A stretch of 36,910 nucleotides of DNA from Flavobacteriia bacterium (GTDB lineage: Bacteria; Bacteroidota; Bacteroidia; Flavobacteriales_D; Crocinitomicaceae). The translations under genes were made by a program, and so were the position numbers. The stretch is taken from NCBI GenBank assembly GCA_947463445.1, contig CANHRS010000019.1, positions 1-36,910 on the forward strand, given 5' to 3'. The notes below the pieces were generated by a model, which saw only the letters and a program-made list of their open reading frames with translations, did not search any database and was not told the DNA's origin. Below, piece after piece: positions 11,839 to 30,972 of this stretch; positions within the stretch are counted from its first letter, which is position 1; each line of letters begins with the position of its first letter.

Positions 11839-14800
11839 TTAGTTGTTGATCACAACTCTTTCCACTTTGTTAAATGTTTCGTTGTATACATTTACTAAGT
11901 ACATACCGTTTGCAAAGTTTGAAACATTGATTGCTTGTTGCATGTTAGCGTTTAAGTCACCACTAAAGATTACTTCTTTTCCAGAAATATCTGTTATGAT
12001 TACTTTAGAGTTAACACCAGCAACGATGTTTAATGAACCAGCTGCAGGGTTAGGATACACTTTCACAGAATTAGAAGCATCTACTGAAGCAATTCCAGCA
12101 GCTAAACCTCTTAATTCTACTTTTACTTGTTTACCATCTAACATACCTTTTACAGATGTAAAATCTTCCATGTTTATTTTACCGTTAGCAGCATCAAATT
12201 GAACAGATACTACGTTTGTATTTAAATCAAATGTAGAGAAATCATTCGATGTAAAACGTAAAGTTCTGTCATCAATATTGAAGTGGTTAAAGCTCTCGAT
12301 TTCGTTTGATTTAGCGATTACATTTTTGAATGTTAATGCATCTTCGTTAAATTTAATTGCGAAGTCAAGTCCTTTTACTGTTTTTTGACCTTCGATAGAA
12401 ACAGGCACTTCAATAGTAGAACCATTAACTTTAACATTTGCGAAATCGAAAACGATTTTGTTTTCCAAAGATTTCACTAAACCATTTTTAACAAATGCAT
12501 CATAGTTACCATCTACATCACCAATCATAATTCCTTTGTATGTTTCTGGAGTTATGTCAGGACAGTTAGCAAAATCAGTTACTGTAGCAGGTAAGAAGAA
12601 AGGAGTTACAGGAACTCTTGATTTCGAGAAACCACCAGCTAAGTCATTTGCAGGGTACGTAGTAGAAATTTTGTATGCTGCATTGTTTTTGATTCTTAAT
12701 GAGTCAACAAAGATCCAGTCTTTAGATGGTTGACCATTAGATACACCAGCATTTGTATAGTTCCAAGCTTGTCTGTACTCACCAATGCTTAAAGCACCTC
12801 TTTGTCTGATTTGAGAGATATCTCCCGCAGAGATAACACCATCGATGTTAACGTCAGCAGCAATCATTTGGAATACATTTGGCGTTACAGCAACGTCATT
12901 TAATAGTATAGAGTTGATGATGTTTACGTCACCTGCGTTTACTACGTCAAAAACGTCTGTTGTGTTAGCGATATCTCTTACGATACGTACACCTAAACCG
13001 TTATTTAAGTCATAAGAAACTTCACCAGCAAGGTTTGCTTTTACATCGATATTGTTACCGTTGATAATACCAGTATTTACATCTGCACCATATACTTTCG
13101 TTGCTAAATAATCATTTGGTAATAAAGCATCGTATTTGATTGGAGAATTGTCAGACCAGAAACGTAACGCCATTGGGAATGTAAAATCTTTACGCGTAAT
13201 TGCTTTTCCAGCAGATACTGCTTTTGTAGAAACACCACCAATGTAAGACTCTTGTAGGAAAGAAGCAGTAACAGTTGTAGTATCTACAGATGCAAAGTTT
13301 GCAGTTTTATTGAACTCAATGGTAACAATTTTACCAATACCAGCAAATTTTGTGTTAGCAGGAGCACTTGCGTTGAAGTAAACAGAAATGTTCATTGTAC
13401 CGTTAATTGCATCAATGGATTTGGATGTGTTTACAAATGCAGGGTTAATCAAATCACTGTTTACAGTAATTATTCCTGAAGGAGTCATTTTTGTTTTGTC
13501 GTAAGCAACAACCATATCGTATCCAATCACGTCATTTACTGTGTTTGTAGCAGCAGCAGTAACAGCCATGTTGAATTTAGGAAGGTTACATTTTTGTTCT
13601 ACCGTAAGAATTTCGTATGGTAGTGCATTTGGATCTGCAACAGAGAATGTTTGCGCTGGAGAAGTAGTTACAGCACCTTTGTTATCTGTAGCTCTTACTG
13701 TCAACGATTTATTCCCTGGTGTACTTGTCCAAGCGTAAGAATATGGAGCAGTATTATCTGTACCAACTACTGTACCATTGATTAAGAATTCAACACCAGT
13801 TACCGAACCATCCGAATCTGCTGCATTAGCATTGATTGTGATTACGGTAGGAGCGATGATAGATCCAGCAATAGATGGAGTAGTAGATGCGATTGTTGCT
13901 GTTGGAGGATTGTTAGCAGCAATTGTAATGTTTGGTGTTGTAGAAGTTCCTGTTAACCCTAAGTTATCTGTAGCAACCGCTTTGATAGCACGAACACCTA
14001 AAGATGAAGTCCAGTTTACAGAGTAAGGAGCAGTATTATCTACACCTACAGAAACGTTATCTACGAAGAACTCTACTTGCGCAACTGAACCATCCACGTC
14101 AGAAGCTGTAGAAGTTAATGTGATTACATCTCCAACGATACCGTTAGAACCAGCAACAGTAACTGTTGGAGCTTGGTTATTAGCAACAGTGATTGCAACA
14201 ACAGAAGAAGTGGTGTTATCTCCTTTGTTATCCGTAGCAACTGCAGTGATATTATGGTTACCAGCAACTGCAGTATAGTTAGCTGTAAATGGAGCAGCAT
14301 TATCTACACCAACAGAAACACCGTCTACGAAGAATTCAACTTGTGTAACTGATCCGTCAACGTCTGCAGCAGAAGCTGTTAATGTTGTTGCAGTACCAGT
14401 GATGATAGAAGAACCGTTAGCAGGAGAAGTTACACTTACTGTAGGAGGATTGTTTGGAGCTAAAGTTAATGACTCTAATACTGTTTCACCAGGAAGAGCA
14501 TTGGAAGCTACATATTTTTGAGAAACTCCAGCAGTTGGCGTACCAATTTGGATGTTAAATTCAAAACGGAAAACACCATCAGTTGTAAATTGTCCTAATA
14601 ATACTCTGTTTTCAGATGTTGGTCCAGTTGCACCATTTAATGCAGAAACAGCTCCATCCGTAACGATAAAAGAGTTACCAAATTGACTTGTTGCATCAAA
14701 TAATCCGCCAGTTGGATCGATACCTACGAAAGTAACAGCCTCAGGAGAACCAGCGATGTTACCATCTTGTGTTTTCAATCCGATACCCATTAAACCACCA

Positions 14801-15273
14801 GTATTATTTAAGATAGATGACAAAGTCAATAAGTTGGCAGCACCATTATCTTCTGTTTTCAAAACACCAAATTGTCCAGTTGCAGAAGCACCTACAGATA
14901 ACCAAGAGTCAAGTGCAACCGTATTGGTTTTTAATTGTGCACTTGGGATAGCATTTGCAGTTGCAGCTCCACGATCCTCATTGTTGAAGAAAGAAGTAGA
15001 AGTAGAAATTTTTAAAGGGTGATCGGCATTACCATATAATGCTTGGAATTTGTATCCTGGTAACATATCTGCATATACACGGTAAGTTACAGATCCTACA
15101 GGAAGAGTACCTACTGAAGCAGCAGCATCTGCAGCGTTTGCGATGTAGTATTTTTCAACGATGATTCCCTCTAAACCGTTTTGCGCTTGTGCAAAACCGC
15201 CACCTAATAAAGCCAAACTTAAGCTCATTAAGATTTTTTTAGCAATTCTTCTTTTTTGTCTTTTTGTTTCCAT
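11839..15273 (-). CDS. Mosaic surface protein: novel domain, Ig-like, cohesin-like, dockerin-like, type A sorting
   Basis: A 1144-residue exported protein; signal peptide to about residue 30 (ALLGGGFAQAQ). Order of parts: the novel N-terminal domain shared by five proteins here (31-265; VEKYYI, GSVTYRVYADM, NTVALDSWLSVG, LLGQFTTDG); three Ig-like repeats of ~90 residues from about 274 (DGSVTQVEFFVDGVSVG); a cohesin-like domain (about 554-690; YDMVVAYDKTKMTPSG); a dockerin-like segment (about 772-825; DVVNAGDVNIIN and ADVNIDGVISAGDISQIRQ); a second cohesin-like domain (about 939-1054; VKGLDFAIKFNEDALTFKNV); and a type A T9SS domain (about 1067-1144; VKVYPNPAAGSLNI). It starts 58 bases after the stop of the beta-helix/dockerin gene and is probably co-transcribed with it. 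It may act as a scaffold-like surface protein. Cohesin and dockerin calls are from pattern, not search. Confidence 0.85.
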   Translation of the reverse strand: METKRQKRRIAKKILMSLSLALLGGGFAQAQNGLEGIIVEKYYIANAADAAASVGTLPVGSVTYRVYADMLPGYKFQALYGNADHPLKISTSTSFFNNEDRGAATANAIPSAQLKTNTVALDSWLSVGASATGQFGVLKTEDNGAANLLTLSSILNNTGGLMGIGLKTQDGNIAGSPEAVTFVGIDPTGGLFDATSQFGNSFIVTDGAVSALNGATGPTSENRVLLGQFTTDGVFRFEFNIQIGTPTAGVSQKYVASNALPGETVLESLTLAPNNPPTVSVTSPANGSSIITGTATTLTASAADVDGSVTQVEFFVDGVSVGVDNAAPFTANYTAVAGNHNITAVATDNKGDNTTSSVVAITVANNQAPTVTVAGSNGIVGDVITLTSTASDVDGSVAQVEFFVDNVSVGVDNTAPYSVNWTSSLGVRAIKAVATDNLGLTGTSTTPNITIAANNPPTATIASTTPSIAGSIIAPTVITINANAADSDGSVTGVEFLINGTVVGTDNTAPYSYAWTSTPGNKSLTVRATDNKGAVTTSPAQTFSVADPNALPYEILTVEQKCNLPKFNMAVTAAATNTVNDVIGYDMVVAYDKTKMTPSGIITVNSDLINPAFVNTSKSIDAINGTMNISVYFNASAPANTKFAGIGKIVTIEFNKTANFASVDTTTVTASFLQESYIGGVSTKAVSAGKAITRKDFTFPMALRFWSDNSPIKYDALLPNDYLATKVYGADVNTGIINGNNIDVKANLAGEVSYDLNNGLGVRIVRDIANTTDVFDVVNAGDVNIINSILLNDVAVTPNVFQMIAADVNIDGVISAGDISQIRQRGALSIGEYRQAWNYTNAGVSNGQPSKDWIFVDSLRIKNNAAYKISTTYPANDLAGGFSKSRVPVTPFFLPATVTDFANCPDITPETYKGIMIGDVDGNYDAFVKNGLVKSLENKIVFDFANVKVNGSTIEVPVSIEGQKTVKGLDFAIKFNEDALTFKNVIAKSNEIESFNHFNIDDRTLRFTSNDFSTFDLNTNVVSVQFDAANGKINMEDFTSVKGMLDGKQVKVELRGLAAGIASVDASNSVKVYPNPAAGSLNIVAGVNSKVIITDISGKEVIFSGDLNANMQQAINVSNFANGMYLVNVYNETFNKVERVVINN

Positions 15274-15295
15274 TTTTATTTTATTTTAAAATGAA

Positions 15296-15320: not shown

Positions 15321-15331
15321 CATTATTTTTT

Positions 15332-17041
15332 TTAGTTACAGCTTGTACCAAAAGATGAGGATAACTGTAAGAAGTCATTTACGTTAGTAACACCATCTGC
15401 GTTGATATCCGTAGGACATGCAGCAAGACCTTTCGTATGACCTAACATGTGTGAGTAAGACCAGTCAGATAACCAGTTTTCGTTCGCATTAGGAGAAAAA
15501 GCACCACGGTAGTTAGCAGTTCTGTAGAAACCATCTACTGGAGCAGTAGGACAACCACTAATTGATAATGCAGGGTTTGGAGCTAAATCATTTTTAACTG
15601 TAATTGCATTTGTTGTAGTATTAATAGTGTAAGCATAATCAAAACCTGGCAATGTATTTCCAGTTACAACTACGTTACCGTCAGCAGTAAATTGATCATT
15701 ATCAGCAGTTACAACGTTAGCAGCTGAACCACCAACAGTTAATGGGTTAGTTACACCAACGAATGTGTTACATTTTACTTTTAAGATATTTGAACCATTT
15801 CCATTTGCAGTTGACCAGTTATGGTAAGATTCAGAAGTACCTGGACGAACTGTACCAACAGATTTAACTGTATTAAAACCATTTTTCCAGTTTGCGAATA
15901 CAGAGTTGTAGAATTCACCACCTGTTAATTCTTTTGCAGCGATTGCAAACATACCAGTGTTATCGGATGTGTTTGTAGTTTTAGCGTTACCAACCATTGT
16001 AACGTTATAGAATACAGGAATCGATTTTGGATTGTTATTTGTTTTGTTATCATCTGAATCCGCTTCAAATCCATTATCTGAATCAGGGCTAGAAGTAAGA
16101 TCTGATTTCATTCCAAAAATAAATTGCGCTTTACCAGACCAACCTAAATCGTAATCAACCATATCGTCATTTCCAAATATTGTAGATAAATATTTGATGT
16201 TTACTGTACCACCAAAGAATTCCACGTTATCATCTGCACAAGAAACGATTTCGATATGTTCCAATGTAGTACCTCTACCAACAGAACCCAAAGTAATACC
16301 ATTTAACTCAGCTCCAACAGTTAATATAGCTCCTGCGTGACGTACAGAAACATAACGTAAGATACCTGAGTTATCATTATCATTAAAGGATTGACCACCT
16401 GTTAAGTTAACACCATATTGATTTTGTAGGTTAGATGTAGCAAAACCTTCAACGGTACCTAAACCATTTGCAACAGCTAATTTACCAGCACCACCTGCAA
16501 CGTAAGGTCCATTTCCAGCCAACGTCAAGTTGTTAGTTGCAGTACCTAAAAGTACCAAACCACCCCATTTTCCGATGTTTGAAATTGCATATGTTCCGTC
16601 CATTGGATCAGCTTCTGCTGTAAATACAATTTGACAATCTGCAGAACCATCCGCGATAATTTTAGCACCTCTTGAAATAACTAATGCAGATGCTTTTGCT
16701 GGGTCAGGTACTCCTGGAGTAGCGCCATCTGGAGCAGTACGTCCTTTAAGTACAGTTCCTGGAGCAATTGTAAGAGTTTGTAAAGAATCAACGTAAATTT
16801 TTTGGTCGATGATATACGTTTTATCACATGTAAGAACAGCACCAGCAGTTAATTCTCCACCATAAGTACCATTTATAGCTGTAAATCCAGGTAAGGAAGA
16901 AAGCAATACAGTTGGTCTTGAAGCTACAGGTGGACAACCACAAGCGGAACCTAAGTTAGATTGCCCAAAAGATGGCGTGATTGCAGCTACAGCCAATGCT
17001 GCAGAAGCGATCATTTTTGAAATTGGTAATTTCTTTTTCAT
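15332..17041 (-). CDS. Exported beta-helix-like protein with C-terminal dockerin-like motif
   Basis: A 569-residue protein with a signal peptide (ASAALAVAAITPSFGQ, cleavage near 26). The body has the recurring strand-turn pattern of a right-handed parallel beta-helix: LTIAPGTVLKGR, ALVISRGAKIIADGS, GKWGGLVLLGTA, NNDNSGILRYVSVRHAG-like turns, and DNVEFFGGTVNIKYL. It is related to the repeated module of the 31248-34205 protein (APGTxxRG, GAKIxAxG, WGGLVxLG, GTVxxK). The last 25 residues, from CPTDINADGVTNVNDF to the terminal Cys, form one dockerin-type F-hand (D-x-N-x-D-G then N-D-F). No type A or B sorting domain is present, so its export or anchoring route differs from its neighbours. The substrate is unknown. 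Confidence 0.82.
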   Translation of the reverse strand: MKKKLPISKMIASAALAVAAITPSFGQSNLGSACGCPPVASRPTVLLSSLPGFTAINGTYGGELTAGAVLTCDKTYIIDQKIYVDSLQTLTIAPGTVLKGRTAPDGATPGVPDPAKASALVISRGAKIIADGSADCQIVFTAEADPMDGTYAISNIGKWGGLVLLGTATNNLTLAGNGPYVAGGAGKLAVANGLGTVEGFATSNLQNQYGVNLTGGQSFNDNDNSGILRYVSVRHAGAILTVGAELNGITLGSVGRGTTLEHIEIVSCADDNVEFFGGTVNIKYLSTIFGNDDMVDYDLGWSGKAQFIFGMKSDLTSSPDSDNGFEADSDDNKTNNNPKSIPVFYNVTMVGNAKTTNTSDNTGMFAIAAKELTGGEFYNSVFANWKNGFNTVKSVGTVRPGTSESYHNWSTANGNGSNILKVKCNTFVGVTNPLTVGGSAANVVTADNDQFTADGNVVVTGNTLPGFDYAYTINTTTNAITVKNDLAPNPALSISGCPTAPVDGFYRTANYRGAFSPNANENWLSDWSYSHMLGHTKGLAACPTDINADGVTNVNDFLQLSSSFGTSCN

Positions 17042-17396: not shown

Positions 17397-19802
17397 TTAG
17401 TTGTTAATCACAACACGTTCCGTTTTTGTATAATTAGCATTAAAAATTCTAACTAAGTAAACACCAGCTGAAAATTCTGAAACAGCTACATGATGCGATG
17501 TGTTAGCAATTAATTCATTTTTGTATGTAATTACTTTTCCAGAAATATCGGTAATTTCTAGAGAAGCATTTTCACTAGCAATAATGGATAATTCTTGGTT
17601 TGCAGGGTTTGGGTAAACCAATGTTTGTAGGTTTGCTGCAATTGTTTCGATAGATACGTTGTTATCTCTTACCATAATATCTTTTGTTTTAGTGCTTGTT
17701 AAACCTCGATTATCTGTTGCTAGTATTTTTACGGTATGTTTACCAGCGACAGCTTTCCAAGTAGAAGTATATGGGGCTATAGAATCACTTGCAAGTACTA
17801 CATTATCTATAAAAAATTCCACTTTTTTAATTGAACCATCTGTATCCGTTGCCTTTGCTGTAATTAGAACATTAGCACCAACAATTGCGGTTGAATCAAC
17901 AATTAGTTCTACAAGTGGCGCTTTATTATCTACAACTTCAAGTATGGAATCTGCAGATGTTCCAGTAAACCCTCTATTGTCTGTAGCTATTGCTTTTACT
18001 TTGTGTACTCCAGCTTTTGCAACCCATTTAATAGCATATGGCGCAGTAGTACTTATGCCGACAGATAAATTACCGACAAAGAATTCTACTTGTGTAATAG
18101 TACCATCTTTGTCTACCGCAGTAGATGTGAATGTTACCTCATCTCCTGTTATTGCATTTTTTGGGGATTGTATCGTAACAACTGGCGCTTGATTATTTAC
18201 AACCGTGATGGAATCTTTTTTAGATGTACCTTTTAATCCAAAATTGTCCGTTGCAACTGCTTTTATAAAATGTTTCCCAAATGTAGTTTTGTATGAAATA
18301 GAGTAAGGACTTGTAGCATCTGTTCCAACTGAAACATCATCTACAAAAAATTCCACAGAAGCAATCGTACCGTCAGAATCAGTAGCCGTAGCAGAAATTA
18401 CTACAGCATCGCCTGTAATAGCATTTGCAGGATTAGAAACTGTAACAATTGGAGCAACATTATCTTTTACGATAATAGTTGAATCTTTCGATGTACCCTT
18501 TAATCCTTTATTATCAATTGCTACTGCTTTTATTTTGTGCGTACCTACTATAGCATTCCAATTAATCGAATATGGAGAAGATTTATCTGTACCTAGATAA
18601 GTTCCATCTACGAAAAATTGAACAGAATCAATAGAACCATCTACGTCATTTGCAATCGCATTGATTGCTATCATAGACCCTGTCATTGCTGTTGGAACAA
18701 CTGCAACACTTACAGTTGGCGCTTGATTATCATTAACAACTATAGTAATTGGCTCTGAGACAGTGCTATCTCCTTTATTGTCTTTTGCAATAGCAGTTAA
18801 TAAATGTGTGCCTGTAACAGTTTTGTAATCATATTCAAATGGAGCAGTGAAATCTACACCTACTAATTTTCCATTTACAAAAAACTCAACTTGAGTAACT
18901 GTCCCATCTTTATCTGTAGCATTAGCAGTAATAGTAGCAATTGCAGCAGTCATGAATTTTGCGTTATTCGCTGGAGAAGTAATACTTACAGCAGGAGGTA
19001 TATTAGATTCATATTTTAATGATGTTATTGTTTTTTCTCCAATAATAGGATTAGAAGCAACATATTTTTCGGAAACTCCTGGAGTAGGAGTACCAATTTG
19101 AATATTGAGTTCGAACGTAAATACACCATCTGTTGTAAATTGTCCAAGCAAAATGCGGTTTTCCGCTGTTGGTCCAGTAGCACCATTTAACGCTGAAATT
19201 GCTCCATTATTTGTTGTAAAGGAATTTCCAGATTGACTAGTTGCATCGAATAAACCACCTGTTGGATCAATACCTACGAAAGTAACAGCTTCTGGAGAAC
19301 CAGCCATGTTACCATCTTGTTTTTTCAATCCTATCCCAATAGCAAGGGCTGTATTATTTAAAATAGAATTTGCAGTCAGTAAGTTAGCTGCACCATTATC
19401 TTCGGTTTTAAGAACACCAAATTGTCCAGTCGCAGAAGCGCCCACAGAAAACCAAGAGTCTAAAGCTACTGTATTGTTTTTTAATTGTGCACTTGCTATG
19501 GCATTTGCAGTTGTTGCTCCTCTGTCTTCGTTGTTAAAGAAGGAAGTAGAAGTAGCAATTTTTAATGGGTGGTCTGCATTTCCATATAAAGCTTGAAAAC
19601 GATATCCCGGTAACATGTCTGCATATAAACGATAGGTAACAGAACCAACAGGAAGAGTTCCAAGGGATGCAACAGAATCCTCTTTTGTAGAAATATAATA
19701 TTTCTCTACAATAATTTTTTCTAACCCATTTTGGGCAAAAGTAACTGTCCATAGTAAAGACAGCCCTAGTCCAAGAAAGATTTTTTTAGTAGTTTTCTTC
19801 AT
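17397..19802 (-). CDS. Novel-domain / five Ig-like repeats / type A sorting protein
   Basis: An 801-residue exported protein; signal peptide to about residue 23 (LGLSLLWTVTFAQ). The novel N-terminal domain (24-262) is nearly the same as that of the proteins at 11839 and 27679 (GLEKIIVEKYYISTKEDS, NTVALDSWFSVGASATGQFG, LLGQFTTDGVFTFELNIQIG). Five Ig-like repeats of ~88 residues start near 268, 359, 450, 537 and 626. Each carries an Asp-Gly turn, VEFFVxxxxVG, a Pro-Tyr strand and KAVATDNxGxxGTS. A type A T9SS domain closes the protein (about 720-801; LVYPNPANQELSII, LEITDISGKVI). It has its own terminator. The 192 bases upstream (19803-19994) hold no gene, so it looks monocistronic. It is likely displayed on the cell surface as a stalk-like molecule. 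Confidence 0.9.
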   Translation of the reverse strand: MKKTTKKIFLGLGLSLLWTVTFAQNGLEKIIVEKYYISTKEDSVASLGTLPVGSVTYRLYADMLPGYRFQALYGNADHPLKIATSTSFFNNEDRGATTANAIASAQLKNNTVALDSWFSVGASATGQFGVLKTEDNGAANLLTANSILNNTALAIGIGLKKQDGNMAGSPEAVTFVGIDPTGGLFDATSQSGNSFTTNNGAISALNGATGPTAENRILLGQFTTDGVFTFELNIQIGTPTPGVSEKYVASNPIIGEKTITSLKYESNIPPAVSITSPANNAKFMTAAIATITANATDKDGTVTQVEFFVNGKLVGVDFTAPFEYDYKTVTGTHLLTAIAKDNKGDSTVSEPITIVVNDNQAPTVSVAVVPTAMTGSMIAINAIANDVDGSIDSVQFFVDGTYLGTDKSSPYSINWNAIVGTHKIKAVAIDNKGLKGTSKDSTIIVKDNVAPIVTVSNPANAITGDAVVISATATDSDGTIASVEFFVDDVSVGTDATSPYSISYKTTFGKHFIKAVATDNFGLKGTSKKDSITVVNNQAPVVTIQSPKNAITGDEVTFTSTAVDKDGTITQVEFFVGNLSVGISTTAPYAIKWVAKAGVHKVKAIATDNRGFTGTSADSILEVVDNKAPLVELIVDSTAIVGANVLITAKATDTDGSIKKVEFFIDNVVLASDSIAPYTSTWKAVAGKHTVKILATDNRGLTSTKTKDIMVRDNNVSIETIAANLQTLVYPNPANQELSIIASENASLEITDISGKVITYKNELIANTSHHVAVSEFSAGVYLVRIFNANYTKTERVVINN

Positions 19803-21797: not shown

Positions 21798-22484
21798 TTA
21801 GTGAAAGCTATAGAATAAACCAAAATTTGCACCTAGTGCATACAACCATTTTTTAACAGGATCATTATTCACAGGAGTTACGGATCGTTTATATAATCCT
21901 TCTACTTTGAATATCCAATTATCGGCTAATTTTGCCTGCATACCTAATCCAGCGATTGCTCCAAGGTTAAACGAAGATAAACTTGTACGATTCGTAAATT
22001 GAACAGCTTCTTTTTTATCTTCCAAGTGAATCACTGTTTTTTGTTGGATAAAGAAATTTCCAGTAAGTCCAAATGTTGTATAAATGTCTACTTTTTTAGA
22101 AATTACTACATAGTCTAAACGTACCGGAACAGCTACAAAATAGTAATGATTTGTATAATTAACTGTTTGTAGATCTACATTATTTTTCGTTTGCTCACCA
22201 TTATTTGTAAAAAATGCGCCTGTAGTTAGGTTTGTTTTTTTGCCTATGGCATGGCTATACTGAACACCTGTTGCAAAACCATATTTTGGAGTCTCCATAG
22301 AATCTGCGATTTCTTTAATCCACATCGATTTTGTATCTGCCTCCAATAAACGGAAGGTGTAGTCTGTGGAATAGGTAATGCCAAGTTGCTGTTTTTTCCA
22401 GGATGTTGTATCTACTTGGATACTGTCTTGTGCATGGATAAATGCGCTAATTACGGTAATAAGGATACTGAATAATAGTTTCAT
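21798..22484 (-). CDS. Outer-membrane beta-barrel protein
   Basis: A 228-residue protein. I choose the ATG ending at 22484, which gives a clean signal peptide (MKLLFSILITVISAFIHAQ) and a 14-base gap to the upstream gene; the longer frame starts at a TTG and would overlap that gene. The mature part has alternating strands with aromatic girdles (YFVAVPVRLDYVV, VDIYTTFGLTGNFFI, LGAIAGLGMQAKLADNW) and ends with FGLFYSFH, close to a typical outer-membrane terminal strand. It resembles small 8-stranded barrels of the OMP_b-brl_2 type. It is the sixth gene of the operon starting at 30972. Function beyond membrane anchoring or sensing is unknown. Confidence 0.75.
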   Translation of the reverse strand: MKLLFSILITVISAFIHAQDSIQVDTTSWKKQQLGITYSTDYTFRLLEADTKSMWIKEIADSMETPKYGFATGVQYSHAIGKKTNLTTGAFFTNNGEQTKNNVDLQTVNYTNHYYFVAVPVRLDYVVISKKVDIYTTFGLTGNFFIQQKTVIHLEDKKEAVQFTNRTSLSSFNLGAIAGLGMQAKLADNWIFKVEGLYKRSVTPVNNDPVKKWLYALGANFGLFYSFH

Positions 22485-22498
22485 AGGATTGAGTTTGA

Positions 22499-23221
22499 TT
22501 AATCTTTGATACAACGAATACTAAAACCATACGTTGTATACGTATGATGACGAAATACTTTCTTTTGTTTTGCATCGATGTAACGGTACCATGCTTCATT
22601 TCCACTGGATGGGGTAGAAGTCCACCAAAATGCGGTGTTTTTTTCTTTATTTATTGCCCCACTAAATAAGCGACATCCTGCAAATAATCCAGTAAATCCA
22701 CTTTCATTGGTTCCAAATGCATATATTTCACTTTCTGTCGGTGCTTTATATTTTGCTAATAATTTATCCGCTTCTACACTACCTCTCCATGCAGTTTTTT
22801 CGGATTCACTCGTTTGCATTCCAAGTGTTTTTTCCAAAGTTTTCCATTCTTCATCACTCGGAATATGCCATCCTTTTGGGGCAATCATTTTAATATTATC
22901 TATCACTTTCCAATTATAAAGTGCTCCTAATGTTGTGTCATAGATACAATATGCAGGTTTTGTTGCGTTAGCCCATAGTGAATCTGCAGCTTTTTCAGAT
23001 AAATGCGCAATAGGAGTATTGTCCGTAAAAACAGTTACTTTGAGGTTTTCAGCCATCCACCATTGCTTACCTATTTTTACTGTTTTGTACGAATTTCCTT
23101 GTACATCCTTCATGCTACTATATTCAGGTGTAATCGCTGTAACTTCTTCTTTGGTACAACGAATCATGCTTACCAATACAAGGATACTTGTTGCAACGAA
23201 ACAAATTGTTTTCTTTTTCAT
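22499..23221 (-). CDS. FISUMP-domain putative lipoprotein
   Basis: A 240-residue protein made almost entirely of one Fibrobacter succinogenes major paralogous (FISUMP) domain: GNSYKTVKIGKQWWMAENLK, GALYNWK, APKGWHIPSDEEWKTLEK, WWTSTPSS and the closing GFSIRCIKD. The N-terminus MKKKTICFVATSILVLVSMIRC looks like a lipoprotein signal with Cys22 as the acylated residue, although Arg before Cys is atypical for a lipobox. FISUMP domains are common in exported Bacteroidota and Fibrobacter proteins and are related to formylglycine-enzyme/C-type-lectin-like folds; no activity is established. It lies 7 bases after the upstream gene and 14 before the next, inside the operon. Confidence 0.85.
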   Translation of the reverse strand: MKKKTICFVATSILVLVSMIRCTKEEVTAITPEYSSMKDVQGNSYKTVKIGKQWWMAENLKVTVFTDNTPIAHLSEKAADSLWANATKPAYCIYDTTLGALYNWKVIDNIKMIAPKGWHIPSDEEWKTLEKTLGMQTSESEKTAWRGSVEADKLLAKYKAPTESEIYAFGTNESGFTGLFAGCRLFSGAINKEKNTAFWWTSTPSSGNEAWYRYIDAKQKKVFRHHTYTTYGFSIRCIKD

Positions 23222-23228
23222 CCTTTAG

Positions 23229-24596
23229 TTAATGTTTGATAAATGTTTTACTTTCAATCGTATTTCCTACTGTTAAGCGTAAATGATAGATACCATTCGG
23301 TAATTGTTCAATATGAACCGCTTCATCCATCAGAATCGATTTTTCTCCAAGTGTTTTTGTTAATACAGCATTTCCAAATACATCGTAAATAGTATATGCC
23401 ATTGCCGTTTCTTCACCAGTTTTAGCATTAATATAGATGTAACTACTACTTGGGTTTGGATGGATTTCAAAGTCTAGTCCATTTTGGAGTAGGGAAGGAC
23501 ATACTTCTGCAATATCACGATTATTACAAGATCCTGGATAACAACACAAATTGTGTATCATTACATTGGCAGTAGGATCGTAATTACATGCTTTTGGGTC
23601 CATACATCCTAGTATTATTTTTGTTTTACATGCATTTTGTTCGTTACATACTGCACGGGGGGAATATTCCATGTAATTTTGGTCTGTACATCCACACGTA
23701 AATGGATATTTTAAAAATCCGCTATAACGTTCGTTCAACTCGTTTTTTTGTACTAAAATGGAATCATTTGATACATATTGTACTTTTGTTGGAACCCCAT
23801 TTATGTTTTCGAGTACTTCGATATTCAAGGCAAACGAAAGCTCTCCTGTGGTGGTAACTTGTGCTATTAAAATCTGATTTTTACTACTATCTGGACCTAT
23901 AATTCCTGCATTTTTAAGAAAGAAATCTGTGCTTTTAAAACTATTTCCTGGTACAATTGATCCAAATATAGTGGAATCATCTTTGTCTCCAAAGAATGCT
24001 TTTATACCATAATCTTCAGTTAAACTTATCACGTTTTTTATAAGTTGATTACCATCATTACGTGTGATAGGAATTCCAGCTTTAGTGTCTCTATTTGCTA
24101 ATAAACCAAATGGCAATGCTGCGCTACCACCATCATTATTTGTTCCACCGATAAATGAACCATCCGTATCTTGATCTTTGGGAATTCCATAGTAAGTTCC
24201 ATTAGTATCGGATTTACATATTTGGCCAAGAGTTAACCAACTATCTAGAGCAATTGTATTATTACTATAACGTCCTTTTTTAAAATCTTTTCCAAAACTC
24301 AATCCTTCGTTTTTATGATTGAAAATTGGAGCTGTGCTCTGTAATATAAATGGATGATTTTTATCGCCATAAATACGTAGTAATTTATTTCCTTTTGGCA
24401 GATCTACATAAATACGATAAGTGACAGAACCAGGAAGTAAATGCCCGCCATTGGTGTCCAATCCGTCAAAATCATCAGAAATATAATATTTTTCAACAAT
24501 TACATTTTCTATTTGTGCTTGCGAAAGAAAGGATGTTAAAAATAATCCTAACAGTAAAAGAATTGCTTGCAATTTCATAAGCTTATTTTTTTTCAT
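23229..24596 (-). CDS. Divergent novel-domain protein with Cys-rich module and type A sorting domain
   Basis: A 455-residue exported protein. Start is M1 or M7; both leave a signal peptide ending SFLSQAQ. The first ~270 mature residues are a divergent copy of the locus-specific domain: VIVEKYYIS, GSVTYRIYVDLPKG, NTIALDSWLTLG and ILIAQVTTTGELSFALNIEV are kept. It carries insertions rich in Gly/Asn/Asp (GGTNNDGGSAALPFG). A Cys-rich stretch (about 300-356) has two GC-[TM]-D units, GCTDQNYMEYSP and GCMDPKACNYDPTAN, a repeat type seen in marine Bacteroidota surface proteins. The end (about 378-455; FEIHPNPSSSYIYI, NGIYHLRLTVG) is a type A T9SS domain. It lies 2 bases downstream of the TonB receptor gene, implying coupled expression. 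Confidence 0.88.
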   Translation of the reverse strand: MKKNKLMKLQAILLLLGLFLTSFLSQAQIENVIVEKYYISDDFDGLDTNGGHLLPGSVTYRIYVDLPKGNKLLRIYGDKNHPFILQSTAPIFNHKNEGLSFGKDFKKGRYSNNTIALDSWLTLGQICKSDTNGTYYGIPKDQDTDGSFIGGTNNDGGSAALPFGLLANRDTKAGIPITRNDGNQLIKNVISLTEDYGIKAFFGDKDDSTIFGSIVPGNSFKSTDFFLKNAGIIGPDSSKNQILIAQVTTTGELSFALNIEVLENINGVPTKVQYVSNDSILVQKNELNERYSGFLKYPFTCGCTDQNYMEYSPRAVCNEQNACKTKIILGCMDPKACNYDPTANVMIHNLCCYPGSCNNRDIAEVCPSLLQNGLDFEIHPNPSSSYIYINAKTGEETAMAYTIYDVFGNAVLTKTLGEKSILMDEAVHIEQLPNGIYHLRLTVGNTIESKTFIKH

Positions 24597-24598
24597 AA

Positions 24599-27500
24599 TT
24601 ATAGTTTGTATGCAATAGAAAGAATGAAGTTGGTTCCATATCTAAAATTATCAAAGTCGATATAGCCATTATTCATGCGGTATGCTCTTCTTGCTTTTGT
24701 GTTTAAAATATCACGAACCATTAAACTAGTGTTAAAGTGTTTCCCGATTTTTTTTGTGATTTTAAAATCGATGGTATTACGAGGCATTTCATATACATCT
24801 GGGAAACCTTTTATAACACCTGTTATAACTAATCGAGGTCCTTGTACATTATAACTTAACGAAGCGGTGATACCTAAACTATCCGATTTATAAGTAGATA
24901 TAGCATTTATTATGTATGGAGCTTGTCCAAACATTGGTCGATTAATTGTATCCAACGCTTTAAAATGTTTTACACCATCTATTATCGACATGTCTTTACG
25001 TATAAATGCAGAATTGGATTGAACCAAGGTTACATTTGCACGTACTTCAAATTGTTTTCCGATTCCTTTTTTTCCTTCAAACTCGAACCCTTTCACGATA
25101 GACTGATCGATGTTTTGCCACGTGATACCAGCAGAGCCAAATCCCATTTCGATATGGTTGCGGAAGTCTTTGTAAAATAAACTTACAGAAATATTATCCC
25201 CATTTTTAAAATAGGATTCCCCTCTAAAATCATAGTTTTTGATATGTACGTTTTTTAAGTCAGAGTTACCATATATCAAGGTTCTAAATTCATTATCATA
25301 TACCGCTGCGTCATTCAACTCACGAATGCTTGGTCGCGCAACTGTTTGACTGAAATTTAAACGTAGATTAACCTGCGCAAATTCGATTTTTTTGATCTTA
25401 TACACGATATTCGCACTTGGTAATACATTTGTTTCTTTTAAGTCTGCTGCATTTACGAGAGCAAATCCTCCTATGTTTTCGCGACGAATATCGTTTTTAG
25501 CATATCCTTTTGTATAATAATCTATTACATCCGAAAAAATTTGCGATTTTTCTACGCGAATACCTCCTGCCAAACGTAGACCAGACTTTAAGGTGTAGTC
25601 TAGGGAAACAAATCCAGCTTGGATGGAACTAAATCCGAAGGTATGGTTTCTTGCAAAATCAGCAGTAGAATAATTAAAATCAATAGTACGGTTTGTTAAA
25701 ATAAATTTATCTTGATTTAGGAAACCATCGATATCATCTGAGTTTAAAGTTTCCCCGCCAATTTTATTTCCATTATTTAAAAAATATTCTTCTAAGTTGG
25801 ATGTACGATTATTGCGTTGAAATGCAGCCCCAAATTTGATTTTACGTGTCATGTCTGAGGTAGAACTTTTAAATGGAATTTCTGCTGCTGCTCTAGCATC
25901 CAAAATGTTTTCATTTAAATAACGATAGTAGCGGCGTATACCTTCTCCTGCTGTTGGAGAAAACGTATAATCAAACGTACTATCAATAACATTATTAACA
26001 ACATACCCATATTGCAAAACTTTAAAGTCAGGTGCTGCACTGTTTCCTTGTGTATAGGATGTGTTAAAATCAATTTTTGTTTTTGTTTTGGGTAAAAAAT
26101 GCTCGGATTTTAGTTGATATATTAACTGTTGTCGTTGTTCGTAAAATTGATTTACGCGTGTGCCAGCTTCTTGATCAGGCGAATTATCTCGCTGCGCTAC
26201 GAAGTTTGCTACATCATTGGTTCCTGAAATGTTTGGCATAAACATAAAAGAGATACTGTTTTTTGCATTGAACTTATACGCAAGATTTACCAGGGTACTC
26301 CAGCTATTTGTTTCACGACTAATGATTGCGTTGTCTTTAGCATCAAATCCAAGTTTACTCGTGTCTCCAGATAATCTTTGTGAAATTCCGTTTGGATCAT
26401 ATCGTACGTTTGTTCCATATCTAAATCCAACAATATATCCAAGAGGTTTTCCAAATAATTTAAATTGATTACCAATACTAAAACTTTGGCTAAAATTCAT
26501 AGGTGCTTTTCGGTTGACAGAGTTCCAGTTATGTGAAAATCCATTGTTATAATCTGTTCCATTGGGATTTATTTTGTCAAAAGCAATTTGCTTGTATTCT
26601 GCATTATATTTGTTTACAGCAGCATTAATCGCATTTACATCATTAATACCACTCTTAGAAAGTAAACCCAATTCTACTAACCCCAATTTGAAATAGTTAA
26701 CTCCTTCAGTGGAACCGTCTTTCCATTCTGTTACTCCAATAGATTTGTAATAATTGCTCAATCCTAATGCTTGCATTTCTTGGTACTGATTGGGTACTAG
26801 AATTGGGCTATTTAATTTTTCGTTTTTATTCACACGAAGGCTATTATCAAATCCTAACCAATCCGTCTTGCTGCGTTGCGAGGAAATCACATCTTTAAAG
26901 GTAGTCTGTTCGTTGTATCCAAATTGGGATTCCACATTTACTTCTAGTTTTTCAGGATAATCTTTCGTTTCCACGGATAAATATGCACCGGAAAAGTCAC
27001 CTGGAAGATCTGGAGTTGCTGTTTTTGTGATGATGATATTGTCTACCAAACTTGCTGGAAAGATATCTAATTTGATATTGTTGGTTAAAGGGTCTAAAGT
27101 CGGGATACGAGATCCATTTAAGGTTGTTTTTACATATCTATCCCCAATACCACGTACTGTAATCAATCCACCAGCGGTAGAAACACCAGAAACACGTGCT
27201 ACCGCAGCAGTTACGTTTGGATCTCCTGTTTTTTTCATGGTTTCAGAAGATACATAATCAATGGTTGTAGCCGAATTCTTTTTGATATTCTCCATGTATA
27301 AATCATTCGCCTTCGGCTTTTTCTTTTTCACAATCGCTGTTCCAATAGTGGTGACTTTTGGCTCTAAGGAATAATCTTGCAGGTACAATTTGGAACTAGT
27401 AAACTTAATTGTATCCTCCAATAATTGATAATTTGTAAGGGAAATTACCAAAACATCGATTGGTAATTTACCATCTACAGAAAAGTTCCCGTCAAAATCG

Positions 27501-27661
27501 GATAATGCAATTTTTGTTCGATCACTTTTTAAGTAAACTTTCGCGTTGTACAAAGCATTCCCTTTTTCATCTGTAATTTTTCCTCTAACTGTTCCTTGCG
27601 AAAATCCAATTACGGTAATAAATAGAGAGAATAATGCCAGTAGGTGTTTTAAATTTTTCAT
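24599..27661 (-). CDS. TonB-dependent receptor with CarboxypepD_reg-like N-terminus
   Basis: A 1020-residue outer-membrane receptor. In order: signal peptide (to about 21, TVIGFSQ); a carboxypeptidase-regulatory-like beta-sandwich (about 22-100; GTVRGKITDEKGNALYNAKV); a plug domain (about 125-240) with VSGVSTAGGLITVRGIGDRY and ITKTATPDLPGDFSGAYLSV; and a long 22-strand-type barrel with the C-terminal YGTNFILSIAYKL. It lies 17 bases after a novel-domain/Ig gene and 2 bases before another novel-domain gene. No SusD homologue is adjacent, so it is not a classic SusCD glycan importer. It may import a ligand captured by the displayed proteins, or use TonB energy for another surface function. The ligand is unknown. 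Confidence 0.93.
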   Translation of the reverse strand: MKNLKHLLALFSLFITVIGFSQGTVRGKITDEKGNALYNAKVYLKSDRTKIALSDFDGNFSVDGKLPIDVLVISLTNYQLLEDTIKFTSSKLYLQDYSLEPKVTTIGTAIVKKKKPKANDLYMENIKKNSATTIDYVSSETMKKTGDPNVTAAVARVSGVSTAGGLITVRGIGDRYVKTTLNGSRIPTLDPLTNNIKLDIFPASLVDNIIITKTATPDLPGDFSGAYLSVETKDYPEKLEVNVESQFGYNEQTTFKDVISSQRSKTDWLGFDNSLRVNKNEKLNSPILVPNQYQEMQALGLSNYYKSIGVTEWKDGSTEGVNYFKLGLVELGLLSKSGINDVNAINAAVNKYNAEYKQIAFDKINPNGTDYNNGFSHNWNSVNRKAPMNFSQSFSIGNQFKLFGKPLGYIVGFRYGTNVRYDPNGISQRLSGDTSKLGFDAKDNAIISRETNSWSTLVNLAYKFNAKNSISFMFMPNISGTNDVANFVAQRDNSPDQEAGTRVNQFYEQRQQLIYQLKSEHFLPKTKTKIDFNTSYTQGNSAAPDFKVLQYGYVVNNVIDSTFDYTFSPTAGEGIRRYYRYLNENILDARAAAEIPFKSSTSDMTRKIKFGAAFQRNNRTSNLEEYFLNNGNKIGGETLNSDDIDGFLNQDKFILTNRTIDFNYSTADFARNHTFGFSSIQAGFVSLDYTLKSGLRLAGGIRVEKSQIFSDVIDYYTKGYAKNDIRRENIGGFALVNAADLKETNVLPSANIVYKIKKIEFAQVNLRLNFSQTVARPSIRELNDAAVYDNEFRTLIYGNSDLKNVHIKNYDFRGESYFKNGDNISVSLFYKDFRNHIEMGFGSAGITWQNIDQSIVKGFEFEGKKGIGKQFEVRANVTLVQSNSAFIRKDMSIIDGVKHFKALDTINRPMFGQAPYIINAISTYKSDSLGITASLSYNVQGPRLVITGVIKGFPDVYEMPRNTIDFKITKKIGKHFNTSLMVRDILNTKARRAYRMNNGYIDFDNFRYGTNFILSIAYKL

Positions 27662-27678
27662 AGCCTTGATAAATGATA

Positions 27679-30132
27679 TTATTCAATAATAAATTTTTGA
27701 ACTAGTTGTATACCGTTCATCGTGCTATGTAAATGGTAAACTCCTTTTTCTAAATGTTGAATATCTATTGTTTCAATACGCGTGTTTTGATTCTTTTCTA
27801 AGTTTTTTTCTAGTACGATTCTTCCTAGATTGTCCACAATTTGATACTCCGTGAAAGTTGCATCATTCGCTCCTTTGATTTCAAATGTTACAAATGTGGA
27901 TGCAGGATTAGGATATATGTCGATACTCATATTTGCAATACGTTCTTCCTCTAGTCCTGCGGTATAATTTTTAACCTCGATCGTTTTGATGCTGGAATTT
28001 GCTTTTGCTCCTTTATCATCTTTAGCAACTGCCTTGATATGATGGATTCCTGCTTTTGCAATCCATTCTACGGAATAAGGTGCCATTTGATCTAAACCGA
28101 TGGAAATAGAATCTAAGAAGAATTCAACTTCTTTAATCTTGCCATCTAAATCGTATGCATTTGCAGTGATTTTTAGCACATCTTCTTTATAAATGGTCTC
28201 AAAATAATTGCTTATACTAACAATTGGTAATTGGTTGTCCAATACTTCTATCATTACGGAGGAAGAAGTAGTTTTTGCTAATTGGTCATCTGTAGCTACC
28301 GCAGTAATATAATGTTTACCCTTTGTAGCTGTATAGTTTGCTGTGTATGGAGTTACTGAATCCACACCTATCGATTTATCATCTAGAAAAAATTCAACGT
28401 TACGTACTTTACCATTTTCATCCGTTGCATTTGCAAGTATTAATAATACATCGCCTGTCGTAAGTTTTGTGTCATTACCAGTAGGGGTAATAATTGCAAT
28501 TTCAGGTAAAATATTCGCAATAACTTCTATTGTTACCAATGCAGAAGTTGTTTTTTCTAATTGATTATCTGTTACAACTGCTGTAATAATATGCTTCCCA
28601 ACTACAGCTGAATAATTTGCGGTGTATGGAGTTACGGAGTCGATACCTACTGTATTCCCATCCACGAAAAATTCTACTTGTTTTACTTTTCCATCTGCGT
28701 CACTTGCACTAGCTTGTATAAGTATGTTAGTACCTTTGATAATTTTTGTATCCTTATTAGTTGGAGAAAGTATAGCTATTTCAGGTAGTATATTTGAGAA
28801 AATCTCGATACTATCTTTTTTCGAACTTCCTTTTCCATCTTTATCATCTGTCGCAATTGCATATACAGTATGTTTACCAAGAACAGCGGACCAATCAAAC
28901 GCATATGGTGCTAATGAATCTTTTCCAACGAATAGATTGTCTACATAAAATGCTACATGTTTGATCGTTCCATCTTCATCTGTTGCATTTGCTTCAAGGG
29001 TAACCGATCCAATTCGTGCTTTTTTCGGCACTTTAATTGTTACTACAGGAGCGATATTATTACTTACAACAATCGTAATACTAGTGGATGTTGTTGTGGC
29101 CTTCTGATTGTCAGTAGCTTTCGCAGTGATTTGATGTGTACCATCCGTGGGTGTATATGCGAAAGAATATGGAGCTGTATTATCTATTCCTATTGAGATT
29201 CCATCCACATAAAATTCAACTTGCTCAATCGTTCCGTCTGAATCTGTTGCATTAACACTAATAGTTGTTTCTATGCCTGTTTTTAATTTAGCATTATTTG
29301 AAGGAGATGTGATTTCTACTACTGGAGCATTATTACCCGTACGAATTAACGATGGTATAGTAAATTCTTTTTCTTTGTCGTTTGTAATTGGATTAGAAGC
29401 AACATATTTTTCAGAAACTCCTGGAGTAGGAGTACCGATTTGAATATTGAGTTCAAACGTAAATAGTCCATCTGTTGTAAATTGTCCAAGTAAAATGCGG
29501 TTTTCTGCAGTTGGCCCAGTAGCACCATTTAATGCTGAAATTGCTCCATTATTTGTTGTAAAGGAATTTCCAGATTGACTAGTTGCATCGAAAACGTCTA
29601 GTTCAGTTGTTATTCCAACAAATGTTACCGCTTCTGGTTTACCAGCCATGTTGCCATCTTGTGTTTTCAATCCTTTACCCATTGCATCAGTGATGTTGTT
29701 TAGGATAGACGATAATGTGAGTAAATTGGCAGCGCCATTATCTTCGTCTTTTAAAACACCAAATTGCCCTGTCGCAGAAGCACCTACAGACAACCAAGAA
29801 TCCAAAGCCACCGTATTGTTTTTTAATTGTGCACTTGCAATTGCATTGGCAGTTGTTGCACCCCTATCTTCGTTATTAAAGAATGAAGTAGAAGTAGAGA
29901 TTTTTAATGGGTGATCGGAATTTCCGTATAATGCTTGAAAACGATATCCAGGTAACATATCTGCATATACTCGGTATGTTACTGAACCTATAGGTAATTT
30001 TCCTAAGGATGCATCCGAATCCTCTTTTGTAGAAATATAATATTTCTCTACAATAATTTTTTCTAAACCATTTTGAGCATAACCCAAAAATTGCAAGGTC
30101 ACAAATCCTAGCGCAAGTACTAATTTATTCAT
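27679..30132 (-). CDS. Novel-domain / five Ig-like repeats / type A sorting protein (operon copy)
   Basis: An 817-residue exported protein; signal peptide to about 19 (LALGFVTLQFLGYAQ). The novel domain (20-258) matches that of the 17397-19802 protein almost residue for residue, except around VGITTELDVFDATSQ, where the GIDPTGGLF loop is replaced. Five Ig-like repeats start near 269, 357, 447, 539 and 634; repeats 3 and 4 are closely alike (ILPEIAI, VDSVTPYTANY, KTTS). Repeats 2-4 carry D-S-[LV] in the same loop, a match to the Bacteroidota O-glycosylation sequon. The last ~80 residues (IDIYPNPASTFVTFEI, KGVYHLHSTMNG) form a type A T9SS domain that is not closely related to those of the other two Ig-repeat proteins. 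Second gene of the operon. Confidence 0.9.
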   Translation of the reverse strand: MNKLVLALGFVTLQFLGYAQNGLEKIIVEKYYISTKEDSDASLGKLPIGSVTYRVYADMLPGYRFQALYGNSDHPLKISTSTSFFNNEDRGATTANAIASAQLKNNTVALDSWLSVGASATGQFGVLKDEDNGAANLLTLSSILNNITDAMGKGLKTQDGNMAGKPEAVTFVGITTELDVFDATSQSGNSFTTNNGAISALNGATGPTAENRILLGQFTTDGLFTFELNIQIGTPTPGVSEKYVASNPITNDKEKEFTIPSLIRTGNNAPVVEITSPSNNAKLKTGIETTISVNATDSDGTIEQVEFYVDGISIGIDNTAPYSFAYTPTDGTHQITAKATDNQKATTTSTSITIVVSNNIAPVVTIKVPKKARIGSVTLEANATDEDGTIKHVAFYVDNLFVGKDSLAPYAFDWSAVLGKHTVYAIATDDKDGKGSSKKDSIEIFSNILPEIAILSPTNKDTKIIKGTNILIQASASDADGKVKQVEFFVDGNTVGIDSVTPYTANYSAVVGKHIITAVVTDNQLEKTTSALVTIEVIANILPEIAIITPTGNDTKLTTGDVLLILANATDENGKVRNVEFFLDDKSIGVDSVTPYTANYTATKGKHYITAVATDDQLAKTTSSSVMIEVLDNQLPIVSISNYFETIYKEDVLKITANAYDLDGKIKEVEFFLDSISIGLDQMAPYSVEWIAKAGIHHIKAVAKDDKGAKANSSIKTIEVKNYTAGLEEERIANMSIDIYPNPASTFVTFEIKGANDATFTEYQIVDNLGRIVLEKNLEKNQNTRIETIDIQHLEKGVYHLHSTMNGIQLVQKFIIE

Positions 30133-30153
30133 CTTTATTTTACTTTTATCTTT

Positions 30154-30972
30154 CTATTTTTTACGTTCTTTCCCATAGATTAAACTAGGGATACATATTT
30201 CATCTTCGATTGGGTTTCGTGCCACAAAACGTTGACTAACACCTTTAGTTGGTGTTGCAACTTGTATGTTTAGTTCAAAGGAGAGTTCACCATCGGTAGT
30301 AACCTGTGCAAGTAATACACGATTGTTTGTCAACGAATCTGCACCTTTAGATCCTCCTAAGCATGCCCAAGCTCCATTTTTGATTTCAAATAAACCTCCT
30401 GGATGGTTTCCGTCAAAAATTTTTACCGCACTGTCAATATGAAAGAAAAATGGTCTAGGTACATTCTCGTGTCGAACAATACCATCTTTTTCTACTAATG
30501 ATATTCCCATTGATTTTTTTGCATTCGCTAAAAACTTTTTCTCATGTTTTATCGTTTCTAAGGTGTCATCATCGGTTTTTAAAATACCATAACAATCTTC
30601 TCCTGCTGCTCCAACCGATAACCAAGAATCAAGCATTACCGTATTTTTTCGTAAGGTTCTAAAAGGAATTACGTTTGGAATAGTAGCACCATGGTCTATG
30701 TTGTTGAAAAAAGTGGTCGTTGTAGCAATGTTTAAGGTGTGTTCAGGACTACCATAGGCAGCTAGGAATTTGTAGCCCGGTAAAAGATCTGCGTATATTC
30801 TATAGGTGATAGCATCTATAGATAATTTACCAGCATATACATTTGCTGTAGTATCGTAGGCTTGCGCTACATAATATTTTTCTACGATTATTTTTTCTAA
30901 TCCTTGTTGAGCAATAGCTGTACCGAAAGAAAAAACAAGCATTAAAATGCTAGATAAAAAGGGTTTTAACAT
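30154..30972 (-). CDS. Stand-alone novel-domain exported protein
   Basis: A 272-residue protein that consists of a signal peptide (MLKPFLSSILMLVFSFGTAIA) and one copy of the locus-specific domain only: GLEKIIVEKYYVA, DAITYRIYADLLPGYKFLAA, FFNNIDHGAT, NTVMLDSWLSVGAAGED, VLLAQVTTDGELSFELNIQV and the closing FVARNPI. It has no Ig repeats and no T9SS sorting domain; it ends in a basic YGKERKK tail. It should therefore reach the periplasm but not the surface by T9SS, unless a partner carries it. It is the first gene of the seven-gene operon and starts 191 bases beyond the preceding terminator, where the operon promoter should lie; no exact TAnnTTTG box was found there. It defines the domain limits. 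Confidence 0.85.
   Translation of the reverse strand: MLKPFLSSILMLVFSFGTAIAQQGLEKIIVEKYYVAQAYDTTANVYAGKLSIDAITYRIYADLLPGYKFLAAYGSPEHTLNIATTTTFFNNIDHGATIPNVIPFRTLRKNTVMLDSWLSVGAAGEDCYGILKTDDDTLETIKHEKKFLANAKKSMGISLVEKDGIVRHENVPRPFFFHIDSAVKIFDGNHPGGLFEIKNGAWACLGGSKGADSLTNNRVLLAQVTTDGELSFELNIQVATPTKGVSQRFVARNPIEDEICIPSLIYGKERKK

Follow-up and report, generated by a model that had tools for sequence, protein, structure and literature searches.

Why does one bacterial genome encode the same unnamed domain five times within a single stretch of DNA, and do the proteins that carry it belong together? The stretch (hereafter, the window) comprises 36,910 nucleotides (nt) of a Flavobacteriia bacterium (GenBank assembly GCA_947463445.1, contig CANHRS010000019.1) and lies on contig 19 of a 122-contig, 2.56-Mb assembly that is 91% complete. 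An earlier note, made from the sequence alone, had proposed the domain as a component of an undescribed system. We find that the domains, here termed heads, are locked into a conserved cassette with a TonB-dependent receptor, and the guess is thus supported. As far as sequence comparison reaches, the head domain is also undescribed within the libraries searched. Our preferred reading, tentative and held with slightly less than even confidence, is that heads and receptor are subunits of an undescribed outer-membrane capture-and-uptake machine, in which the heads act as a mainly beta binding domain with an insert.

The five open reading frames (ORFs) are real at the coordinates given below, and all lie on the minus strand. 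Each encodes a signal peptide followed by a homologous domain of ~230 residues. The heads align end to end, with 33 to 47% identity to the stand-alone copy, which matches the other four at pairwise E values of 2e-62 to 1e-22. Four patterns derived from the three signatures of the earlier note occur in order in 5/5 heads and in no other examined window ORF (those of at least 80 amino acids (aa), overlaps removed), while only 1 of 200 residue shuffles of the same ORF set contained any of them. Coordinates, pattern order, and full-length alignment therefore agree with the earlier description of five ORFs sharing ordered signatures, to which we add the strand. In the whole assembly, these five head copies were the only ones found, also when searched with a profile at E ≤ 1. 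Chance similarity is rejected by the pairwise E values, the genome profile search, and the shuffle test. Mature head proteins begin, by eye, with Gln at or near the predicted cut, matching the “Q-rule” of Bacteroidetes (PMC5837995).

The genomic context of the heads is highly regular. We compared 72 named loci, which are the best 80 of 239 confirmed stretches, being the closest matches and biased to loci that hold a head; some are contigs of genomes that we also sampled (L071/G082, L073/G067, L078/G062, and L136/G010, among others). Together they carry at least 208 full head copies, a lower bound since ORF calling dropped overlapping frames and missed 6/7 heads in L074 and L118. With head proteins divided into four classes (a to d), the typical order is class a (median 276 aa), class b (365 aa), the TonB receptor (about 1020 aa), class c (446 aa), a FISUMP protein, sometimes a small beta-barrel, a beta-helix protein, and a long class d protein. 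Class a is mostly a head alone, and class b a head plus sorting tail or a head with immunoglobulin-like (Ig) stalks. Immediately downstream of the receptor, a head was found in 52/54 of the named loci in which this could be judged, and in 54/54 after a recheck for hidden heads that covered only L074 and L118; in the two exceptions the head ORF is present and was masked by an overlapping antisense ORF. The median gap between receptor and downstream head is 10 nt. A head lies directly upstream of the receptor in 49/56 named loci, and a FISUMP gene follows class c in 43/51; a loose lipobox-like pattern is found in 38 of 41 complete FISUMP homologues. Outer neighbors, named by eye, differ between loci. 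Thus, the cassette is a self-contained block.

Since the named loci were chosen for holding a head, adjacency alone is a biased measure, and we therefore turned to sampled genomes. Among 99 of these (own genome included), 23 had a head match among the matches listed; in G077, G089, and G097, which carry a short form of the head described below, the matches were weak and partial (best E 4e-10 to 3e-13). A receptor orthologue (E ≤ 1e-100) is present in 20/99 genomes, exactly the 20 with a long-form head among the matches listed, and in 0/79 others. Of the 20 cassette genomes, 18 have a beta-helix orthologue (E ≤ 1e-81), the two misses being 59% and 86% complete; weaker beta-helix relatives are present in seven cassette-free genomes (E 5e-44 to 1e-59). 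Within this sample, inheritance of the cassette is all-or-none.

Wider samples show how far the heads extend. At the order level, 152/399 genomes have head matches among the matches listed, many with a best E of only about 1e-8 to 1e-19 and probably of the short form. A short-form profile matched 34/295 genomes of the class sample among the matches listed, and several class-sample genomes in other families show the protein set of 280, 370, 450, and 1150 aa. Two profiles (A2 and A4) each matched 4/395 genomes of the phylum samples, own genome included, one match being weak and partial. Among 13 genomes of the genus sample, the cassette is absent from four among the matches listed, three of which are less than 90% complete. 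The cassette is likely, although not proven, to be gained or lost as a unit. Its G+C content (0.348) is similar to that of its flanks (0.335 to 0.354), and a recent foreign origin is rejected.

The window follows the typical order with one extra b-like protein and a TPR membrane protein added. The anatomy in the earlier note was right about the five heads and too small in extent, as the TonB receptor, FISUMP, and beta-helix proteins were not tied to the heads there. The parts within the window, all on the minus strand and in cassette order, are:

30154-30972 (minus): class a protein of 272 aa; consists of a signal peptide and the head (30157-30909), without a type IX tail
27679-30132 (minus): class b protein, 817 aa; head (29329-30075), five Big_7, type A sorting tail (27679-27918)
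24599-27661 (minus): TonB-dependent receptor, 1020 aa; Plug domain, CarboxypepD_reg-like N-terminus below cut-off
23229-24596 (minus): class c protein of 455 aa, separated from the receptor gene by 2 nt; carries a head (23715-24515), a 10-cysteine module (23499-23696), and a sorting tail of type A (23229-23465)
22499-23221 (minus): Fib_succ_major (FISUMP) domain protein (E 3.9e-41), possible lipoprotein
21798-22514 (minus): small outer-membrane beta-barrel-like protein, 238 aa; OMP_b-brl_2 below cut-off
19995-21779 (minus): membrane protein with C-terminal TPR repeats, 594 aa
17397-19802 (minus): extra b-like head protein, 801 aa; head (19005-19733), five Big_7, type A sorting tail (17397-17618)
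15332-17041 (minus): beta-helix-like secreted protein, 569 aa (fold by eye); no Pfam match, no type IX tail
11839-15273 (minus): class d protein, 1144 aa; head (14458-15183), three Big_7, weak dockerin-like stretch, type A sorting tail (11839-12060)
10627-11652 (minus): secreted accessory protein without a head; carries a PKD domain, a type A tail, and an N-terminus with sub-threshold likeness to cohesin
7482-10508 (minus): PKD-repeat accessory protein with type B (CHU_C) sorting domain; N-terminus resembles that of the 10627-11652 protein

Is the head a known domain? The remaining parts of the window head proteins are ordinary, namely Big_7 Ig-like repeats and type IX sorting tails. For the head itself, Pfam gave no match for any of the five window copies at E ≤ 10, nor for any of 147 aligned heads at E ≤ 0.01. 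NCBIfam gave two stray single-member matches among the 147 (best E 0.0057), and PHROGs matched one member at E 0.29. Sequences of the Protein Data Bank (PDB) gave nothing at E ≤ 10 with a deep head profile and three strays (E 0.26 or more) with a 5-row profile. Membership in a known family is therefore rejected within these four libraries, where no profile match spans the full domain, and the claim of the earlier note that it belongs to no characterized family holds there. Likewise, no account that we recognized as the head domain or the cassette appears in the abstracts and outlines of the literature searched.

A structure predicted with AlphaFold2 from 147 rows (4 from the window and 143 from named loci) is well defined: the 251-residue mature form of the stand-alone copy reaches a predicted local distance difference test score (pLDDT) of 95.5 and a predicted template modeling score of 0.93. 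Five of the 148 non-redundant heads are omitted from alignment A4, and near-identical rows (62% or 75% cut) from both the tree discussed below and this alignment; an earlier 5-row prediction (pLDDT 45) was not used. The predicted head is mainly beta, with strands at 4-14, 34-42, 47-53, and 59-63 near the N-terminus, a long middle stretch of loops, short strands, and helices, and C-terminal strands at 179-187, 195-205, 209-212, 215-218, and 225-229. This model is in keeping with the suggestion that the domain folds independently. A Foldseek comparison with 350,542 PDB chains returned none at E ≤ 0.001 (best E 0.26), with template modeling scores of at most 0.31 in the best 50 of 193 rows, from a single aligner; beta-sandwiches are easily missed in such comparisons. 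Adhesins, cupins, seed globulins, and leukocidins are among the weak matches at the top of the list, and viral models from BFVD also gave none at E ≤ 0.001. Within the reach of this one aligner, structure comparison thus leaves the absence of a known family standing, and the head may possibly represent a new fold. Ten residues are invariant in 147/147 rows: the polar E10, R37, D94, D114, D142, Q202, T205, and N214, together with G143 and G207.

The head is N-terminal in all five window proteins and in 195 of 208 full copies of other loci, as the earlier note had indicated for the window, and internal in the other 13. This position directly after the signal peptide, and the very different modules that follow it, could also mark a targeting or chaperone domain for type IX export that binds no ligand. 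We regard that as very improbable. The known signal for outer-membrane export of type IX cargo is its C-terminal domain (PMC4804311), three tailed window proteins (at 10627, 7482, and 31248) have no head, class a has a head and no sorting tail, some copies are internal, and an export role would not account for the tie to one receptor.

The origin of the head may be illuminated by a shorter version of it, present in many copies in several genomes of another family in the same order. In the four such genomes searched, the long-head profile gave 21 to 56 matching stretches each among the matches listed, covering both ends of the domain and skipping its middle, such that one copy often yields two stretches. 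In a 9-row short-form alignment, the D of DSW and the Q, T, and N of the QFTTDG...N block are invariant, E and R are kept in 8/9 rows, and the insert holding D114 and D142-G143 is missing. Profile alignment with hhalign (probability 99.9, E 1.6e-31) identifies the short and long forms as homologous at the sequence level. The short-form head is N-terminal in 7/7 proteins inspected. Five short-form proteins have no credible Pfam or NCBIfam match within the domain, and their other parts match sorting tails and a galactose-binding-like module. Unlike the cassette heads, short-form heads (in G077, G089, G097, and others) are dispersed across the genome, often with GCTDxxACNY repeats, and G077, G089, and G097 have no cassette receptor orthologue. 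We infer that the cassette head is this short surface domain plus an insert.

We rejected a plasmid origin of the short form, as a tblastn search with one two-copy protein found nothing in plasmids. A phage origin was likewise rejected: ten cyanophage records match this two-copy protein (E 2e-4 to 8e-3), mainly, by query position, over the GCTDPxALNY linker between its two domains, and one scan of viral contigs with a short-form protein found no relative. Two-headed arrangements occur in both forms. Proteins of L040 (99-1676) and L026 (2752-5574) have two short-form heads with a GCTDPxALNYxPxAxxDDGSC linker in between, and arrays of this cysteine motif come after the heads. L025 (13992-19501, G067 contig 43), L027 (1348-7542), and L028 (849-4951) encode very large proteins that carry two long-form heads, with a GCTD/NYNP-type cysteine motif ahead of the second and with up to 2366 residues of open frame in G067, a genome with about eight heads within 12 kb.

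The heads of the cassette fall into distinct classes. Class c forms one clade in a tree of 73 heads (31/31 rows; Shimodaira-Hasegawa-like approximate likelihood ratio test 98), while class a needs 5 changes and classes b and d 10 each; 31 head proteins whose position was unclear are assigned to no class. The cysteine module of class c has 10 cysteines in 50/52 proteins and 11 in the other two. Within the window, the b, extra, and d heads share 73 to 82% DNA identity, and pairs with a or c 51 to 57%. Across loci, b and d heads of one locus have a mean identity of 57.6%, 5.6 points over cross-locus b-d pairs. Gains within loci are 2.6 points for a-d (highest in 4/16), 1.4 for a-b, and at most 0.4 for pairs with c. 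A strong claim of concerted evolution between b and d heads was considered and reduced to a moderate one because the within-locus b-d pair ranks highest in just 5 of 24 loci.

Sorting tails indicate where these classes reside. Counted with a profile of the six window tails rather than with Pfam, tails occur in 46/48 class b, 46/52 class c, and 10/11 class d proteins of other loci, and in 3/32 complete proteins at the a position. In the window, Por_Secre_tail is found in four of the five head proteins and is missing from the 272-aa copy, and SprA, the type IX translocon, is present in the same genome with a score (2413 bits) above the cut-off. Surface display is thus well supported for classes b, c, and d and unsupported for class a. 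The surface exposure suggested by the earlier note is backed for the four tailed proteins and unsupported for the stand-alone copy, 29/32 of whose position-mates are tailless too. From its sequence, class a may be periplasmic.

The beta-helix protein ends in a motif of a different kind. Its 37 complete homologues have no type A tail; instead, a DxNxDG calcium-loop motif lies close to the C-terminus, often with a last cysteine, in the place of the type IX tail (L071-L142). This motif falls within the last 40 residues of 37/37 complete homologues and of 0/528 of the remaining complete ORFs (200 aa or longer) from these loci, counts obtained with a looser pattern written after seeing the sequences, a first strict version having matched 8/37. 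The window protein has one such half-dockerin-like motif at 15335-15418 (minus). The terminal calcium loop is possibly an unrecognized docking or sorting signal. A similar motif ends short-form head proteins in L026 and L041.

Cohesin- and dockerin-like parts, which the earlier note had assigned to the head proteins, prove weak: a sub-cut-off dockerin stretch is present in class d, and the one cohesin match lies outside the head proteins. Dockerin_1 scores 15.8 bits in the 1144-aa class d protein (cut-off 22.9; 22 bits and E 4.8e-4 in the genome search) and appears at E ≤ 1 in 16/29 class d proteins, at best 1.9e-5. No window head protein matches Cohesin over the curated cut-off; the sub-threshold match (22.1 bits, cut-off 24.1) belongs to the neighbor at 10627-11652. 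Class d proteins of other loci gave no cohesin match among the best 25 of 34 families. By eye, the 1144-aa protein seems to have cohesin-like stretches before and after its dockerin-like stretch.

The main rival to the uptake reading is a surface fiber or adhesin, of which the heads would be subunits, with b, d, and the beta-helix protein forming a layer or filament, c anchoring it, and the receptor serving assembly or signaling. Big_7 stalks in the window b and d proteins and in 20/29 class d proteins speak for such a structure, as do PKD/CHU_C proteins close by in several loci. The likeness of b and d within a locus would be expected if heads must fit together, and the terminal half-dockerin-like motif of the beta-helix proteins also suits an assembly. 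However, strict co-inheritance with a TonB receptor is not required for an adhesin, the b-d signal is moderate, and class b, with a median of 97 residues after the head, is often head plus tail only and would make a poor fiber subunit. We judge this alternative rather unlikely, though a serious contender.

Under the preferred capture-and-uptake reading, the four or five head proteins would work as one machine around the receptor. Type IX secretion would display b, c, and d at the cell surface, held on stalks whose lengths differ, with b and d reaching further out than c. Class c, beside the receptor and with its 10-cysteine module, could be a dedicated lid or docking subunit of the receptor, and class a, having no sorting tail, could sit on the periplasmic side of the receptor or be carried out in complex. 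The heads would bind one ligand or its parts, class c would pass the ligand to the receptor, and the receptor would import it with TonB energy, the FISUMP and beta-helix proteins being further surface subunits. Ligand or partner binding, docking, and transport by the cassette are what we infer from these arrangements.

The SusCDEF glycan uptake loci of Bacteroidota comprise a TonB-dependent receptor with several surface binding proteins and lipoproteins. The cassette resembles them in combining, within one locus, a TonB-dependent receptor with several surface binding candidates and putative lipoproteins. It differs in that its binding candidates are mostly type IX cargo rather than lipoproteins, its receptor is non-SusC by model, no SusD family match was found among 17 window proteins scanned with Pfam, and no glycoside hydrolase was seen. 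In NCBIfam at E ≤ 0.01, the receptor best matches TIGR01782 (162 bits, cut-off 310), plus a stray, and does not match TIGR04056/TIGR04057, the SusC-type receptor models. Judged by its genes, the system would work like known TonB-linked surface loci and yet fails the tested SusCD hallmarks.

Two other systems invite comparison. Cohesin-dockerin assemblies share with the cassette the weak dockerin-like stretch of class d and the half-dockerin-like motif of the beta-helix protein, the latter being a single calcium loop and not a duplicated dockerin. TANFOR-domain polymorphic toxins of Bacteroidetes likewise have an N-terminal domain of unknown function in large proteins, with type IX proteins enriched nearby (PMC7073777). 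In contrast to these, no toxin or immunity gene was seen in the cassette, and no Pfam or NCBIfam match of a head protein points to TANFOR (presence of a TANFOR model in these libraries was unchecked).

Several observations weigh against an uptake machine. With no SusC match for the receptor, the SusCDEF parallel is one of layout only. Seven loci (L072, L073, L074, L078, L106, L119, and L128) have no head directly before the receptor, which there seems to lead the block. We had considered a special co-evolution of class c with the receptor, and found it unsupported: over 24 loci, receptor and head distances correlate alike for b (r = 0.70), c (0.70), and d (0.72), showing no special coupling of c beyond shared history. 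No conserved enzyme, periplasmic binding protein, or inner-membrane transporter was seen in the cassette (the flanks were not systematically annotated), nor was any clue to the ligand found there. Neither by sequence nor by Foldseek does the head resemble a known binding module, and Ig stalks and PKD neighbors also suit adhesins. Record titles place the 72 named loci in uncultured or metagenome-assembled genomes.

A variant would have the cassette import a metal, cofactor, or phosphate compound instead of a polymer, with hemophore-like heads. That no carbohydrate enzyme was seen beside the TonB receptor in the cassette, and that the head has invariant acidic residues, is compatible with this, as is a two-component system (by eye) that adjoins the neighboring second TonB locus in one relative (L023). 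However, no conserved metal or phosphate regulator or inner-membrane importer was seen in the cassette, and a small ligand would hardly seem to call for four to eight paralogous heads. This variant appears improbable.

Genes around the window cassette are partly shared with other loci. The second TonB receptor (an 841-aa open frame running off the window edge) and a duplicated beta-helix protein with a type A tail lie at 31248-36910 (minus); this pair adjoins the cassette here and in L023, L136, and L138. The TPR membrane protein is also present in the same three close relatives and does not belong to the cassette in most other loci, and the accessory protein at 10627-11652 adjoins class d in the close relatives L024 and L133. 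At 2851-5562 (minus), a gene beside PorP/SprF-like and SPOR-like (by eye) neighbors encodes a 903-aa protein in which a PHP-like phosphoesterase region (by eye) is fused to a glycosyltransferase group 1 domain. In L132 and L135, homologues of the PKD-CHU, PorP/SprF-like, SPOR-like, and PHP-glycosyltransferase genes follow class d in the window order; thus, in these two loci the cassette is accompanied by the accessory block as well.

Here, we present a domain family that merits a name, with 147 aligned rows and no Pfam match in any, and a confident predicted fold of the head available for comparison. The all-or-none inheritance of the cassette makes its function testable. The terminal calcium-loop motif of the beta-helix proteins may be a separate docking signal. 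In its widest form, which we hold to be conceivable with more doubt than belief, the cassette would be a new class of machine: a dedicated TonB receptor, paralogous heads with a fold absent from solved structures, type IX display on graded stalks, a 10-cysteine partner, and a beta-helix protein docking by its calcium loop, spread through Bacteroidia after the head arose from a dispersed short domain that gained an insert. The named loci derive, by record titles, largely from lakes, groundwater, and soil. The cassette is a sign that many uncultured Bacteroidota have a surface system that is linked to TonB and lies outside the SusCD scheme.

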